DNA from: Phalacrocorax aristotelis
Taxonomy: Eukaryota > Chordata > Aves > Suliformes > Phalacrocoracidae
Direction: 5' to 3'
DNA: 64,000 nucleotides
Assembly (NCBI RefSeq): GCF_949628215.1
Contig: NC_134278.1
Span: forward strand, 45,882,191 to 45,946,190
Each line of letters opens with the position of its first letter. The first letter of the stretch is position 1. Shown piece after piece: positions 45,179 to 51,716 of this stretch. The notes under the pieces are model-generated. The model was not told the DNA's origin, did not search any database, and worked only from the letters and a program-made list of their open reading frames with translations. The position numbers and the translations under genes are program-made.

Positions 45179-45183
45179 GCATG

Positions 45184-45685
45184 TGTGCTGGTTTTGGCTG
45201 AGAAGGGGTTAATTCTCCTCACTGTGGGGGTCAGCTACCTTTCCAGCTTCCCGCGCTCTGCCGCGTGGCGTGGCAGGGGGGGCTGGGAGGGGCAGGGCCA
45301 TGGTGGGGGCGGCTGACCCCGACTGGCCAATGGCAGGTTCATTCCATACCATGTGACACCATGACCAGTATATTGAGGGGGGGCAGTGGCAGCGCGGGGG
45401 CGGCGCGGCGTCGGGTCGGCGGGCGGCGAGCGGCTGCGGCGCGTGCGGTTTGTTCCGGCGGTTCGTTCCCCCTCTCCCCTCCCTTCCTTTCCCCCTCCCC
45501 CGGGGCTTTGCGCCTCTCGTTGTTCTCCTTTACATTGCATTTCTACTGTTGTTTCTTTTAATTTTCATTATTAAACTGTTCTTATCCCAACCCACGAGCG
45601 TTACCCTTCTGATTCTCTCCCCCATCTACCGGTGGGGGAGTGAGCGAGCGACTGTGTGGGGCTGAGCTGCCGCTAAACCACGACA
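45184..45685 (+). repeat. 5' LTR of the ERVL-like provirus
   Basis: 502 bp, starting TGTGCTGGTTTTGGCTGAGA and ending ACCACGACA. It has a GC-rich middle, a TATA-like AGTATATTGA around 45367-45377 and an ATTAAA polyadenylation-like signal at 45570-45575 followed by a U5-like region. It differs from the 3' LTR at 45374 (T, not G) and 45376 (A, not G) only. Confidence 0.95.
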
Positions 45686-45692
45686 GTCTTTT

Positions 45693-45710
45693 TGGCGCCC
45701 AACGTGGGGC
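45693..45710 (+). other. Primer binding site, Lys-tRNA type
   Basis: TGGCGCCCAACGTGGGGC starts 8 nt after the 5' LTR. It matches the 18-nt complement of tRNA-Lys(1,2) used by betaretroviruses. Classical ERVL elements are named for a Leu tRNA primer, so this is a departure from the type. Confidence 0.85.
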
Positions 45711-45750: not shown

Positions 45751-47619
45751 ATGTTGTCCTTTTTGCAGTTGGTGTTAAAAATCGGTGTTGGTTGTTTGAG
45801 TCTGCTGTGTTCTGCTGTGATTAGTAATGTTTTGCCTACGAGATTTGTTATACAAACACTCGTTTTCAGCTTTATCTGGTATTTGGGGTTTTTGCTGAAA
45901 CCGTTACTGTACTTCGGATACCACCTTGTTGAGGCAATTAGCAATTATACCTCCTCCTCTGAGAGATTTTATATGGAGGAAATACAGAATAATACCTTTG
46001 CAACTTTGTTCTATGATGTCTGTGCCTTTGTTACAACAACGTTTTTGTATCTTGAACATCCTTGGGTGGTTAAGGTGCAGTCATTGTTAGTTTTTGGGCA
46101 TGTTGTTTTGGTTTTGACTAAGCAACTTAAGAATATCACCCAGAAATCTGCCCCGAGGCTTGATAGTTACGAGTGGCAGGGCATGTGGGATAGCATGGGC
46201 AAATACCTAGGGCAGTGGGCACCCCCAGTGTTTTGGAGTTTCACCCCCGAGCAAGTGCAGAATCCTAAAAAACTAGTAGAATATTTGGAGAAAGTATGTT
46301 GTTACGCTGGGAACTCCAGAGAGACACAGATAACTGCAACATGCTGGGGTCTGGCCCATGCATACCGAGCCCTGCTCAACAGTATTCAGTGCCCCCAGGG
46401 GGAAGAGAATGTCTCTGGATTGAAATGCAAAGTGACTGGCACTGTAGACAATCCAGCCCTGACAACAGGCACTGCAGCCACTCAAACCCCCACAACAAGT
46501 ACCGGAGCTGGCTCAGAAAATAAACCCGTACCAGTATCAGTTGCCCCCATACATAAGACGAAATATTGGAAGCGGACATCAACTCGTTTAGAACGGGATG
46601 ATGAAGAACCAGGGCCATCGCGGGGAGAGGAGGGAGAAGTAATAAATGAAATAGAGACCACCCGATCCCTGTCCTTAAGCGAGTTGCGAGATATGCGAAA
46701 AGATTATAGCCGTCGTTCAGGTGAGCACATTGCCACCTGGCTGCTCCGATGCTGGGATAATGGGGCCAGTAGCCTGGAACTAGAGGGAAAAGAAGCCAAA
46801 CAATTGGGATCCCTTTCTGGGGAAGGGGGCGTTGACAAAGCAATTGGAAAAAAACCACAAGCCCTCAGCCTCTGGAGGCGACTCCTGTCTGGAGTGAAGG
46901 AAAGGTATCCCTTTAAAGAAGATGTTACATATCGCCCAGGAAAATGGACAACTATGGAGAAAGGCATCCAGTATCTCAGGGAATTAGCTGTGTTTGAGGT
47001 GATTTATGGTGACCTGGATGATCAACGGTCATCCAAAGATCCAGATGAAGCCGAGTGCACACGACCCATGTGGCGGAAGTTTGTACGGAGCGCACCATCT
47101 TCGCATGCAAACTCATTGGCAGTGATGTCCTGGAAAGATGACGAGACACCAACGGTGGCAGAGGTGATAGATAGACTCCGGGATTATGACACAAATATCT
47201 CTTCCTCGCTTGTCTCTGCTGTGGAGAAACTATCCCAAGAGGTCCAGCAACTCAAAGAAGATCTGTCCTACTCCCCACCTCGACAGAGCAGTGTCTCAGC
47301 TGTTAGGAATAAGCGTCCTTTGGCTCAAAGAAGGGGATACACACCACGGGCCACCCTATGGTTCTACCTGCGTGACCACGGAGAGGACATGATGAGGTGG
47401 GATGGCAAGCCTACTTCGACCCTACAGGCACGAGTACATGAACTGCAAGGGAGAACAGTCACTCAGGGAGGCTCTTCCAGGAAAGCTGCTGCTCCAGTTT
47501 CCAGCGAGCAAGTCCCCAGACAGAGGAGTAGAAGCGCAGATTTTATTTCTAAGTGTAATAGAGGGACTCCTGATTCACATTTACAGGAAGTGAGTTGTGA
47601 CTGCCATGATCAGGACTAG
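45751..47619 (+). CDS. gag: ERVL-like Gag polyprotein with hydrophobic N-terminus, intact frame
   Basis: 622 codons from the ATG at 45751 (context AGCACCATGT) to TAG at 47617-47619. The open frame extends upstream into the LTR, but this is the first good ATG after the primer site. Residues 4-27, 33-56, about 83-101 and 107-123 are hydrophobic, with possible glycosylation sequons NYT, NNT and NIT. A Thr/Ser-rich, then acidic linker follows (about 250-310). The capsid-like part comes next (about 320-450), with ATWLLRCWDNGA, LSLWRRLLSGVKERYPF and GIQYLRELAVFEVIYGD, wording I associate with ERVL/Fv1 capsids. A short coiled coil (LSQEVQQLKEDL) and a basic tail end it. No CCHC zinc knuckle is seen. 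No frameshift or internal stop. Confidence 0.85.
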   Translation: MLSFLQLVLKIGVGCLSLLCSAVISNVLPTRFVIQTLVFSFIWYLGFLLKPLLYFGYHLVEAISNYTSSSERFYMEEIQNNTFATLFYDVCAFVTTTFLYLEHPWVVKVQSLLVFGHVVLVLTKQLKNITQKSAPRLDSYEWQGMWDSMGKYLGQWAPPVFWSFTPEQVQNPKKLVEYLEKVCCYAGNSRETQITATCWGLAHAYRALLNSIQCPQGEENVSGLKCKVTGTVDNPALTTGTAATQTPTTSTGAGSENKPVPVSVAPIHKTKYWKRTSTRLERDDEEPGPSRGEEGEVINEIETTRSLSLSELRDMRKDYSRRSGEHIATWLLRCWDNGASSLELEGKEAKQLGSLSGEGGVDKAIGKKPQALSLWRRLLSGVKERYPFKEDVTYRPGKWTTMEKGIQYLRELAVFEVIYGDLDDQRSSKDPDEAECTRPMWRKFVRSAPSSHANSLAVMSWKDDETPTVAEVIDRLRDYDTNISSSLVSAVEKLSQEVQQLKEDLSYSPPRQSSVSAVRNKRPLAQRRGYTPRATLWFYLRDHGEDMMRWDGKPTSTLQARVHELQGRTVTQGGSSRKAAAPVSSEQVPRQRSRSADFISKCNRGTPDSHLQEVSCDCHDQD

Positions 47620-47661
47620 AGGGGCCCTGCCTCCAGCCGGGTGGAGGAAAGGGATAACCGG
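47617..47661 (+). other. Amber codon between gag and pol with downstream hairpin (readthrough signal candidate)
   Basis: Gag ends in TAG and the pol frame continues in the same phase with no other stop. Ten nt after the TAG comes CCTCCA-GCCGGG-TGGAGG (47630-47647), a perfect 6-bp stem with a 6-nt loop. The loop's CCGG could pair with CCGG at 47658-47661 to make a pseudoknot. This layout resembles the gammaretroviral type of stop-codon readthrough. Function is inferred. Confidence 0.6.
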
Positions 47662-50600
47662 GCTTACTGGACTGTGTGGATCCGATGGCCTGGCACGTCC
47701 GACCCACAGGAGTATAAAGCTTTAGTGGACACCGGCGCACAGTGCACCTTAATGCCATCAAACTATATAGGGGCAGAACCCATCAGCATTGCTGGAGTGA
47801 CAGGGGGATCTCAAGAGCTAACTGTATTGGAGGCCGAAGTGAGCCTAACTGGCAATGAGTGGCAGAAGCACCCCATTGTGACTGGCCCAGAGGCTCCGTG
47901 CATCCTTGGTATAGACTACCTCAGGAGAGGGTATTTCAAGGACCCAAAAGGTTACAAGTGGGCTTTTGGTGTAGCTGCCTTGGAGACGGAGGAAACTGAA
48001 CAGCTGTCTACCTTGCCCGGTCTCTCAAAGGACCCTTCTGTGGTGGGGTTGCTGAAGGTCAAAGAACAACAGGTGCCAATCGCCACCACAACAGTGCACC
48101 GGCGGCAATATCGCACCAACAGAGACTCTCTGATCCCCATCCATAAACTCATTCACCAACTGAGGAGCCAAGGAGTCATCAGTAAGACCCACTCACCCTT
48201 TAACAGTCCCATATGGCCAGTCCGGAAGTCTAATGGAGAGTGGAGACTAACAGTAGACTATCGTGGCCTGAATGAAGTCACTCCACCGTTGAGTGCTGCT
48301 GTGCCAGACATGCTAGAACTTCAATACGAACTGGAGTCAAAGGCGGCCAAGTGGTATGCCACAATTGATATTGCTAATGCATTCTTCTCAATCCCTCTGG
48401 CAGCAGAGTGCAGGCCACAGTTTGCTTTCACATGGAGGGGCGTCCAGTACACCTGGAATCGACTGCCCCAGGGGTGGAAACACAGTCCTACCATTTGCCA
48501 TGGACTGATTCAGACTGTACTGGAACAGGGAGAAGCTCCAGAACACCTTCAATACATTGATGACATCATTGTGTGGGGCAGCACAGCAGAAGAAGTTTTT
48601 GAGAAAGGTGAGAAAATAGTCCAAATCCTTCTGAAAGCTGGTTTTGCCATAAAACAAAGTAAGGTGAAGGGACCTGCACGAGAAATCCAGTTCTTAGGAA
48701 TTAAATGGCAAGACGGTCGTCGTCAGATTCCAATGGATGTGATCAACAAAATAGCAGCCATGTCTCCACCAACTAGCAAAAAGGAAACACAAGCTTTCTT
48801 GGGCGTTGTGGGTTTTTGGAGAATGCATATTCCAAATTACAGTCTGATCGTGAGCCCTCTCTATCAAGTGACCCGGAAAAAGAATGATTTCAAATGGGGC
48901 CCTGAGCAACGACAAGCCTTTGAACAGATTAAACGAGAAATAGTCCATGCAGTAGCTCTTGGGCCAGTCCGGGCAGGACAAGATGTAAAAAATGTGCTCT
49001 ACACTGCAGCCGGGGAGAATGGCCCTACCTGGAGTCTCTGGCAGAAAGCACCTGGGGAGACCCGGGGTCGACCCCTAGGGTTTTGGAGTCGGGGATACAG
49101 AGGGTCTGAAGCCCGCTATACTCCAACTGAAAAAGAGATATTGGCAGCATATGAAGGGGTTCGAGCTGCTTCAGAAGTGGTTGGTACTGAAGCACAGTTG
49201 CTCCTGGCACCCCGACTGCCAGTGCTGGGCTGGATGTTCAAAGGAAACATCCCCTCTACACACCATGCAACTGATGCTACGTGGAGTAAATGGGTTGCAC
49301 TGATCACCCAGCGGGCTCGAGTAGGAAACCCCAGTCGCCCAGGAATCTTGGAAGTGATTATGGACTGGCCAGAAGGCAAAGATTTTGGATTATCACCAGA
49401 GGAGGAGGTGACACGTGCTGAAGAAGCCCCACTGTATAACAAACTGCCAGAAGATGAGAAGCAATATGCCCTGTTCACTGATGGGTCCTGTCGCCTTGTG
49501 GGAAAGCACCGGAGATGGAAGGCTGCTGTATGGAGTCCTACACGACAAGTAGCAGAAACTGCTGAAGGAGAAGGTGAATCGAGCCAGTTTGCAGAGGTAA
49601 AGGCCATCCAGCTGGCCTTAGACATCGCTGAACGGGAAAAGTGGCCAGTGCTCTATCTCTATACTGACTCCTGGATGGTGGCAAATGCCTTGTGGGGCTG
49701 GCTGCAGCAATGGAAGCAAAGCAACTGGCAGCGCAGAGGCAAACCCATCTGGGCTGCCACATTGTGGCAAGATATTGCTGCCCGGGTAGAGAAACTGGTT
49801 GTAAAGGTACGGCATGTGGATGCTCACGTCCCCAAGAGTCGGGCCACTGAAGAACATCGAAACAACCAGCAGGTAGATCGGGCTGCCAAGATTGAAGTGG
49901 CTGAGGTGGATCTGGACTGGCAGCATAAGGGTGAACTATTTCTAGCTCGGTGGGCCCATGACACCTCAGGCCATCAAGGGAGAGATGCAACATACAGGTG
50001 GGCTCGTGATCGAGGGGTGGACTTGACCATGGATATTATTGCACAGGTTATCCACGAATGTGACACATGCGCTGCAATCAAGCAAGCGAAGCGGGTAAAG
50101 CCTCTGTGGTATGGGGGACGATGGCTGAAATATAAATATGGGGAGGCCTGGCAAATTGACTATATCACACTCCCACAGACCCGCCAAGGCAAGCGCCATG
50201 TGCTTACAATGGTAGAAACAACGACTGGCTGGCTGGAAACATATCCTGTCCCCCACGCCACTGCCCGGAACACTATCCTGGGTCTTGAGAAACAAGTCCT
50301 GTGGCGACATGGCACCCCAGAGAGAATTGAGTCAGACAATGGGACTCATTTCCGAAATAGCCTCATAGACACCTGGGCCAAAGAGCACGGCATTGAGTGG
50401 GTGTATCACATCCCCTATCACGCACCAGCCTCTGGGAAAATTGAAAGGTACAATGGACTGTTAAAAACCACACTGAGAGCAATGGGGGGTGGGACATTCA
50501 AGCACTGGGATACACATTTAGCAAAAGCCACGTGGTTAGTCAACACGAGGGGATCTGCCAACCGAGCTGGCCCTGCCCAGTCAGAAATCCTACATACTGT

Positions 50601-50805
50601 GGAAGGGGATAGAGTCCCTGTAGTGCACACAAAAAGTATGCTGGGCAAAACAGTCTGGGTTCTTCCTGCCTCTGGCAAAGGCAAACCCATTCGTGGGATT
50701 GTTTTTGCTCGAGGACCTGGGTGCACTTGGTGGGTGATGCGGGAGGATGGAGAAATCCGATGTGTGCCTCAAGGGGATTTGATTTTGGGTGAAAACAGTC
50801 AATGA
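47620..50805 (+). CDS. pol: ERVL-like Pol: protease, reverse transcriptase, RNase H, integrase, intact frame
   Basis: 1061 codons after the amber codon; there is no nearby ATG, so it would be made as a Gag-Pol fusion. Numbering from 47620: the aspartic protease DTGA begins at residue 37; the reverse transcriptase contains LPQGWKHSP and YIDD at 312-315; RNase H has Asp621 (FTDGS), Glu659, Asp683 (YTDSW) and Asp734; the integrase zinc site is His780, His785, Cys814, Cys817, with catalytic Asp847, Asp906 and Glu942 (D-D-35-E). All expected catalytic residues are present and there is no stop or frameshift. No dUTPase domain is seen after the integrase, where mammalian ERVL elements carry one. Confidence 0.93.
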   Translation, partial: RGPASSRVEERDNRAYWTVWIRWPGTSDPQEYKALVDTGAQCTLMPSNYIGAEPISIAGVTGGSQELTVLEAEVSLTGNEWQKHPIVTGPEAPCILGIDYLRRGYFKDPKGYKWAFGVAALETEETEQLSTLPGLSKDPSVVGLLKVKEQQVPIATTTVHRRQYRTNRDSLIPIHKLIHQLRSQGVISKTHSPFNSPIWPVRKSNGEWRLTVDYRGLNEVTPPLSAAVPDMLELQYELESKAAKWYATIDIANAFFSIPLAAECRPQFAFTWRGVQYTWNRLPQGWKHSPTICHGLIQTVLEQGEAPEHLQYIDDIIVWGSTAEEVFEKGEKIVQILLKAGFAIKQSKVKGPAREIQFLGIKWQDGRRQIPMDVINKIAAMSPPTSKKETQAFLGVVGFWRMHIPNYSLIVSPLYQVTRKKNDFKWGPEQRQAFEQIKREIVHAVALGPVRAGQDVKNVLYTAAGENGPTWSLWQKAPGETRGRPLGFWSRGYRGSEARYTPTEKEILAAYEGVRAASEVVGTEAQLLLAPRLPVLGWMFKGNIPSTHHATDATWSKWVALITQRARVGNPSRPGILEVIMDWPEGKDFGLSPEEEVTRAEEAPLYNKLPEDEKQYALFTDGSCRLVGKHRRWKAAVWSPTRQVAETAEGEGESSQFAEVKAIQLALDIAEREKWPVLYLYTDSWMVANALWGWLQQWKQSNWQRRGKPIWAATLWQDIAARVEKLVVKVRHVDAHVPKSRATEEHRNNQQVDRAAKIEVAEVDLDWQHKGELFLARWAHDTSGHQGRDATYRWARDRGVDLTMDIIAQVIHECDTCAAIKQAKRVKPLWYGGRWLKYKYGEAWQIDYITLPQTRQGKRHVLTMVETTTGWLETYPVPHATARNTILGLEKQVLWRHGTPERIESDNGTHFRNSLIDTWAKEHGIEWVYHIPYHAPASGKIERYNGLLKTTLRAMGGGTFKHWDTHLAKATWLVNTRGSANRAGPAQSEILHTVEGDRVPVVHTKSMLGKTVWVLPASGKGKPIRGIVFARGPGCTWWVMREDGEIRCVPQGDLILGENSQ

Positions 50806-51209
50806 ACTGAATGGCACAATGTGAACTGCTATATAATATTGTGTGTCACCTCTGTGTTGTATCAATGATATCAGAGTACGAGCCTCCCAACCCATGGAAG
50901 ATCAACTATGAAACAAGCCGTGCAGCAGTGATGGAACGATGACTGACTCGGTATGCAGCAACCCAACGCCACACACCATCTCTCCCACCCGGAAAGACTG
51001 ATACAACAGATGGAGCCCAGAGTCATGGACTGGGTGAACTCAATGGACATTTTAATGGACATTTTACAGGGAAGATCCATGAACTAAGGGAATGATGTCT
51101 GTGTATTATGTTAAAGGATGGGAAGGGGAGGGGTGGTGGTTGGTACGGTTGTATTGCATCATATGGGACCTGGGCATGGTGTAAGTGGTATGGAATAAGG
51201 GGTGGAGAA
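50806..51209 (+). other. Non-coding 3' region of the provirus, no env, ending in a purine tract
   Basis: About 400 bp without a meaningful frame. It contains a perfect 12-bp tandem repeat AATGGACATTTT (51042-51065), a purine-rich block near 51113-51138 and, next to the 3' LTR, GGAATAAGGGGTGGAGAA (51192-51209), the likely plus-strand primer site although it is interrupted by two T residues. Confidence 0.75.
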
Positions 51210-51711
51210 TGTGCTGGTTTTGGCTGAGAAGGGGTTAATTCTCCTCACTGTGGGGGTCAGCTACCTTTCCAGCTTCCCGCGCTCTGCCGCGTGGCGTGGC
51301 AGGGGGGGCTGGGAGGGGCAGGGCCATGGTGGGGGCGGCTGACCCCGACTGGCCAATGGCAGGTTCATTCCATACCATGTGACACCATGACCAGTATATG
51401 GGGGGGGGGCAGTGGCAGCGCGGGGGCGGCGCGGCGTCGGGTCGGCGGGCGGCGAGCGGCTGCGGCGCGTGCGGTTTGTTCCGGCGGTTCGTTCCCCCTC
51501 TCCCCTCCCTTCCTTTCCCCCTCCCCCGGGGCTTTGCGCCTCTCGTTGTTCTCCTTTACATTGCATTTCTACTGTTGTTTCTTTTAATTTTCATTATTAA
51601 ACTGTTCTTATCCCAACCCACGAGCGTTACCCTTCTGATTCTCTCCCCCATCTACCGGTGGGGGAGTGAGCGAGCGACTGTGTGGGGCTGAGCTGCCGCT
51701 AAACCACGACA
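51210..51711 (+). repeat. 3' LTR of the ERVL-like provirus
   Basis: 502 bp, the same length as the 5' LTR with two substitutions (51400 and 51402), both just after the TATA-like AGTATAT. It is followed by GCATG, the target duplication. Confidence 0.95.
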
Positions 51712-51716
51712 GCATG

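Follow-up and report, generated by a model that had tools for sequence, protein, structure and literature searches.

A predicted multi-spanning membrane anchor at the start of Gag in a young env-less class III endogenous retrovirus of Phalacrocorax aristotelis

Introduction

Mouse IAP belongs to the class II elements and carries a short signal at the start of Gag, and IAP Gag reportedly reaches the endoplasmic reticulum (ER) through the signal recognition particle (SRP), as the title of a 2003 study by Fehrmann has it. Loss of env together with an altered Gag N-terminus is described for the env-less IAP, MusD, and ERV-L elements, and it is for these mouse families that the passage from env-less retrovirus to intracellular, prolific retrotransposon has been set out (PMC3197615). 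MuERV-L forms particles in the ER (PMC5930517, where neither "hydrophobic" nor "transmembrane" occurs), and in yeast the SRP leads Ty1 Gag to the ER, nucleating particle assembly (PMC3945221). Given these cases, the principle of an intracellular Gag is already known.

In birds, the songbird element TguERVL2, of ERVL type, 6.4 kb long, and judged likely active, resembles by its description the provirus analyzed here (PMC6523648, where neither "transmembrane" nor "hydrophobic" occurs). The Gag of our provirus opens with a hydrophobic block that may cross a membrane several times, and among the matches listed in the open-access literature we found no description of a multi-spanning anchor in an avian ERV Gag.

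Results

Provirus structure and classification

The window, by which we mean the whole 64,000-nucleotide stretch of the Phalacrocorax aristotelis genome that was analyzed (GCF_949628215.1, contig NC_134278.1, positions 45,882,191 to 45,946,190), holds a provirus with the following parts, in window positions:

45179..45183, + strand: 5' target-site duplication GCATG (5 bp), which precedes the 5' LTR and recurs past the 3' LTR
45184..45685, + strand: 5' LTR, TGT...ACA, 502 bp, delimited by alignment to the 3' copy
45693..45710, + strand: primer binding site TGGCGCCCAACGTGGGGC, identical in 29 of the 30 loci L001-L030, window copy included
45751..47619, + strand: gag, 622 amino acids, with stop codon TAG in all 30 of these loci, window copy included
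47620..50805, + strand: pro-pol frame with PR, RT (YIDD), RNase H, and IN, from Pfam matches and translation; in the gag frame, with one TAG between
50806..51209, + strand: 404 bp after pol, with no ORF of at least 120 amino acids and no env found
51210..51711, + strand: 3' LTR, from the LTR alignment
51712..51716, + strand: 3' target-site duplication, repeating the 5' GCATG

The two LTRs, of 502 bp each, differ by 2 mismatches (501 of 503 aligned positions are identical, the last aligned base lying outside the LTR). At the junction of gag and pol (47617-47640) there is a single TAG (47617-47619), after which pol continues in frame. The ORF list of the window contains no ORF of at least 120 amino acids within 50806-51209, in agreement with a preliminary description that had taken the element to be without env.

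LTR ends of the form TGT...ACA, a stop codon separating gag from pro-pol within a single frame, and the RT motif YIDD (here YIDDIIVW) mark the element as class III. The primer binding site TGGCGCCCAACGTGGGGC, which we take to be of the tRNA-Lys1,2 type, departs from the tRNA-Leu site of ERV-L proper. TGT...ACA ends and YIDD are among the published criteria for class III ERVs (ERV-L/ERV-S); ERV-L carries a dUTPase after the integrase, and ERV-S is also without one (PMC8278194). With a Pfam cutoff of E 0.1, the pol frame gave no dUTPase match. The earlier label ERVL is thus sound as to class III features and fails as to ERV-L proper, on the dUTPase and on the primer site. An env and a separate pol frame, both characteristic of Spumaretrovirinae, are absent, pol lying in the gag frame; loss of env is shared with IAP-like elements. 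We conclude that this is a spuma-like class III ERV, young and without env, whose gag and pol are open.

Copies in the genome

Near-identical gag occurs in 71 scored full-length copies, the best scorers of 4889 first-look candidates in a genome of 1.28 Gb and 352 contigs, and 68 of the 71 are without a stop. Thirty copies were treated as loci, one of them the window copy, and 20 of the other 41 were fetched. Across the 30 loci, gag differs from the window copy by 0 to 7 codons; flanking sequences are distinct apart from two duplicate sets. The window provirus is very young, part of a recent burst, and its open gag frame therefore needs no special reason; the significance that had been attached to the uninterrupted frame falls away.

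An older gag subfamily is also present. Among its 65 best-scoring rows (of 13988 candidates), 42 lie on contig C35. Ten places were fetched, nine of them stop-free, and all 10 carry the hydrophobic block, having been chosen from best-scoring, mostly stop-free rows. Contig C35 measures 31 Mb, or 2.5% of the assembly, and its enrichment in the older subfamily is comparable to the described appearance of a W chromosome (PMC8310711), which it may be.

The N-terminal block and the rest of Gag

The landmarks of Gag are as follows:

45760..45831, + strand: hydrophobic segment 1, residues 4-27 (Kyte-Doolittle mean, KD, 2.12 for residues 7-25)
45847..45918, + strand: hydrophobic segment 2, residues 33-56 (KD 1.71 for residues 37-55)
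45943..45951, + strand: sequon N65-Y-T in a predicted lumenal loop; N-x-S/T in 19 of the 23 rows of alignment A1
45988..45996, + strand: second sequon, N80-N-T, from the translation; less conserved in A1 (by eye)
45997..46053, + strand: weak hydrophobic segment, residues 83-101 (KD 1.48, lowest of the four)
46063..46119, + strand: juxta-domain hydrophobic helix, residues 105-123 (KD 1.79), the block part most widely kept in the family
46162..46389, + strand: conserved helical domain with FTPEQ motif, residues 138-213, from invariant columns in A1
46390..46650, + strand: Thr/Ala/Pro-rich linker of variable length, residues 214-300, from the alignment and model
46657..47217, + strand: capsid-like domain, residues 303-489

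In all 622 residues, only four non-overlapping 19-residue windows reach a KD of at least 1.0, and all lie within residues 1-123, which bears out the four hydrophobic stretches first noticed in the initial 125 or so residues. Segment 83-101 probably does not span the membrane; were it counted as spanning, the sequon loop would fall on the cytosolic side. The three sequons noticed earlier are likewise there, the third being N128 (NIT, by eye in the translation). It sits inside the basic stretch after the last helix and is for that reason unlikely to carry a glycan.

No ATG intervenes between a TATA-like site (about 45370, by eye) and that at 45751. Its context, caccATG with A at -3, is identical in all 30 loci, window copy included. 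Judged from the sequence, 45751 is likely the correct start. Gag begins MLSF and so lacks the Gly at position 2 of a myristoylation signal. AF2 confidence is low over residues 1-130, with block means of 35-56 in a first, poor model built on 23 rows and of 42-74 in a later one.

The block had been described as standing in place of a matrix domain, with the capsid-like part only after residue 320 or so. We find a conserved helical domain (138-213) between block and linker, so that the wording "instead of a matrix domain" goes too far, and a capsid that starts near residue 303. Neither Gag nor the 23-row alignment had a meaningful match in Pfam or among PDB sequences, neither model matched anything in Foldseek at E 0.001, and IMG/VR scans found no relative. 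No MA-like fold was among the structure matches listed for the N-terminal half, which, for a low-confidence model, says nothing either way. A similarity of songbird ERVL gag to herpesvirus glycoprotein C has been reported (PMC6523648); the low-complexity Thr/Ala/Pro linker of the present Gag family could explain it.

Relatives in other birds

Protein relatives were taken as the best 120 of 291, of 476, and of 475 in three listings, and the species-labelled homologues in the first two of these are all from birds except for one bacterial record. That record, P0087, filed as Klebsiella pneumoniae on a 2,094-base contig, has 65% identity to the present avian Gag over 53% of it and is most likely host DNA contamination.

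The conserved domain was located in 104 of 207 proteins, 54 of which have at least 40 residues upstream of it. Directly before the domain, 35 of the 54 have an 18-residue window with a KD of at least 1.6, and 6 more reach 1.05-1.58; the other 13 are unlike the block and, in our own sorting, resemble fused or spliced gene models. A hydrophobic helix in this place is common among the avian relatives, for which the preliminary description had proposed to look. Ahead of it there are one to three further helices in ibis, hawks, ducks, and geese and one or two in crane members; mousebird and manakin members have a related start (by eye), and the guineafowl protein P0165 and a further relative, P0168, have a single helix before the domain (by eye; KD 2.48 and 2.61).

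Alignment A1 comprises 23 rows selected because all or part of the N-terminus was present; it leaves out fusion models and a number of near-duplicate duck rows. Among the four rows without the N65-column sequon, one is without the region; members of the crane/mousebird/manakin lineage have no such sequon. The loop from helix 2 to the last helix (31 to 80 residues, weak segment 83-101 included) is weakly conserved apart from the sequon; it is net negative in 22 rows and neutral in one, and in all 23 rows positive charges predominate in the stretch that follows the last helix. By the positive-inside rule, this acidic loop would face the lumen with its sequon, and the remainder of Gag, from the basic stretch on, would be cytosolic. 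Overall, the avian relatives appear to keep a hydrophobic helix that directly precedes the conserved domain and is followed by a basic stretch, while the number of helices farther upstream varies.

Selection and base composition

Pairwise codon maximum likelihood (ML) over codons 1-126, with the window copy set against three older-lineage copies (L051, L053, L056), gave omega values of 0.42, 0.44, and 0.39 (likelihood ratio tests against omega = 1, p = 0.0024, 0.004, and 0.0012), the dN/dS check that had been suggested. ML omega was 0.22-0.27 for codons 127-215 and, about equal to the block, 0.34-0.48 for the capsid. By NG86, omega for codons 1-126 was 0.42-0.46 in four window pairs (L051, L053, L058, L056), with a bootstrap range of 0.26-0.68 over two of these (L051, L056). 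All these pairs share the window sequence and are thus not independent. Compared with each other, the older copies L056 and L051 gave an omega of 0.66 (bootstrap 0.30-1.64), which is not below 1.

Among the gag regions examined, dN peaks in the block (0.24-0.26 against 0.08-0.19, window pairs), and its NG86 dS is 0.55-0.58 against 0.29-0.35 in the capsid. The higher dS in the 5' half of gag hints at a mosaic gene. Third-position T, synonymous divergence, and kappa vary between parts of gag, which is possibly recombinant. Across 47 near-identical copies, window included, we counted 11 nonsynonymous and 6 synonymous changes in the block and 15 and 39 in the rest (Fisher p = 0.009); for this count the copies had been ranked by protein score, which biases it, the shared-flank copies L017, L018, and L028 were dropped, and duplicates may remain among L031-L050.

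Third codon positions are 40% T in the block (45751-46128), compared with 21-23% in codons 127-215 and 305-490. Neutral simulation with uniform composition kept two segments in 6.5-10.5% of replicates at 25-35% identity, whereas simulation with the region's own T-rich composition kept the hydrophobic pattern in 61-74%. Hydropathy simulations were accordingly rejected as proof of selection, as T-rich composition alone can keep hydropathy. In neutral runs with kappa 4-8, the NG86 value was reached in 8 to 53 of 200; the kappa fitted in the block region is low (1.6-1.7). There is a mild excess of hydrophobic-to-hydrophobic changes: 27 of 34 and 23 of 30, compared with 295 among the 434 possible random changes. 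The codon tests support purifying selection on the N-terminal block between lineages, weaker than on the next domain. We conclude that the block is constrained, though loosely at individual residues, as would be expected where hydrophobicity outweighs exact sequence.

Predicted fusions of host proteins with the capsid

Six predicted isoforms of AMFR (gp78; P0096, P0103, P0106, P0113, P0115, P0166) have their C-terminus replaced by the linker, capsid, and C-terminal part of Gag. The junction follows the same AMFR residues in Strix, Bubo, Athene, Pezoporus, and Lathamus; Aegotheles (owlet-nightjar) has a different junction and a shortened capsid part. In Gallus gallus, P0174 joins a synoviolin-like (HRD1-like) N-terminal part and RING to a diverged capsid of the present Gag family and is apparently separate from the AMFR fusions, Pfam finding the synoviolin-like domain and RING in both. 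Predicted USP4 isoforms (P0023, P0044, and P0048, from Buteo, Accipiter, and Tyto) pass into Gag immediately after the hydrophobic block. A tree unites the gag parts of the USP4 fusions with support of 0.974 and those of the AMFR fusions from owls and parrots with only 0.842, on long branches. In Aptenodytes patagonicus, P0151 is a predicted CTD phosphatase with part of a Gag of this type in its middle.

A search of the P. aristotelis genome with the whole AMFR fusion protein listed gag places only, and AMFR does not occur in the best 20 of 246 literature matches listed. AMFR and synoviolin are ER-membrane E3 ligases. The AMFR-, USP4-, and synoviolin-like fusions are known as gene models and could be artefacts of annotation; possible, too, is that the AMFR-Gag fusions are host restriction factors, in which case they would act at the ER as the presumed site of assembly of the element. 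That a bird class III ERV lineage with a multi-spanning ER anchor had its capsid repeatedly fused by its hosts to ER ubiquitin ligases, as TRIM-Cyp-like restriction factors, is a scenario we put forward with considerable doubt. Should the E3-Gag fusions prove to be real genes, they would represent an uncommon type of capsid-based restriction factor.

Discussion

We consider it likely that the Gag studied here is a membrane protein, with a multi-spanning ER signal-anchor at its start, and that it would assemble under the ER membrane and serve env-less copying within one cell. The first 125 or so residues would act as an uncleaved signal-anchor that inserts nascent Gag into the ER membrane. From charge and sequon, we predict three spanning helices (7-25, 37-55, and 105-123). 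The lumen would hold the N-terminus and the sequon loop, and the cytosol all that follows from residue 124 onward, namely helical domain, linker, capsid, and readthrough Pol. The capsid would multimerize under the ER membrane, particles would either remain tethered there or be released into the lumen by budding, and, by analogy with IAP and MuERV-L, the element would copy within one cell without env. The block, its likely start codon, its spread in birds, and the selection between lineages fit assembly on an internal membrane, and it is there rather than at the cell surface that the Gag of this lineage probably assembles.

How many of the helices matter is a separate question. A possible, if less probable, arrangement is that helix 105-123 alone anchors Gag, N-out and C-in, and that the upstream helices are lineage-specific ornaments or a cleaved signal peptide. 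The single helix of P0165 and P0168 suits it, as do the one to three further helices of other members and the fact that upstream parts vary most; against it, codons 1-60 alone give omega values of 0.40, 0.46, and 0.51 (p = 0.036, 0.07, and 0.12), which is suggestive, not firm. We think it rather improbable that a role in the RNA, as a splice acceptor or a packaging or export signal, is what preserves the T-rich 5' part, with the hydrophobic protein a by-product of U-rich codons. Such a role would agree with the third-position T content, with the own-composition simulations, and with the several gene models and USP4 fusions that appear joined at the block end (by eye), but synonymous changes are not suppressed in the block, where dS exceeds that of the capsid, and a crude scan for acceptor-like sites does not place the TTTTGACTAAG site among its 8 best.

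A block under no constraint, intact only through the youth of the copies, is very unlikely: it is looser than the rest of gag in the young family and one older pair is not below an omega of 1, but omega is below 1 in three pairs of the window copy with older lineages (the window sequence being common to all), hydrophobic-to-hydrophobic changes are in mild excess, and the block is spread across birds. We give the least credence to the idea, raised in the preliminary description, that the block replaces an envelope function by anchoring and exposing a glycosylated loop on particles for entry. The lack of env and the conserved sequon in the predicted lumenal loop speak for it; yet the loop is short and hardly conserved beyond the sequon, which is itself absent from one large lineage, Pfam with the whole protein gives no fusion or receptor domain, and strictly intracellular env-less families are on record (PMC3197615).

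The best reading of this avian lineage would be, on the present comparisons, as a form of "intracellularized" Gag. It looks like another solution to that end, one that forms part of the main Gag product itself. A recent burst beside an older subfamily in one genome, together with one- or several-helix relatives across birds, also provides a natural experiment, so that the question of which Gag membrane signal makes an ERV intracellular becomes testable outside rodents.

Among known systems, MLV glyco-Gag has a membrane-inserted N-terminal part, as is predicted here; it is a second product, from an upstream CUG and with an accessory role, whereas the predicted anchor here lies in the main frame from the first AUG. 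Foamy viruses have an env and are not known to have a membrane anchor in their Gag. The short signal at the start of IAP Gag contrasts with the several predicted spanning helices of the present Gag, and the tRNA-Leu site of MuERV-L and mammalian ERV-L contrasts with the primer site here. The latter elements share class III and the lack of env with ours, and MuERV-L forms particles in the ER (PMC5930517); they differ further in their dUTPase (PMC8278194). Foamy viruses differ also in having pol in another frame (PMC8278194). Ty1 Gag would be alike in its SRP-dependent route to the ER and differs in having no discernible signal or transmembrane segment and in occurring in both ER lumen and cytoplasm (PMC3945221). 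Mouse IAP is the env-less, intracellular counterpart (PMC3197615) whose way of life the avian element would share by means of a longer, predicted multi-spanning anchor.
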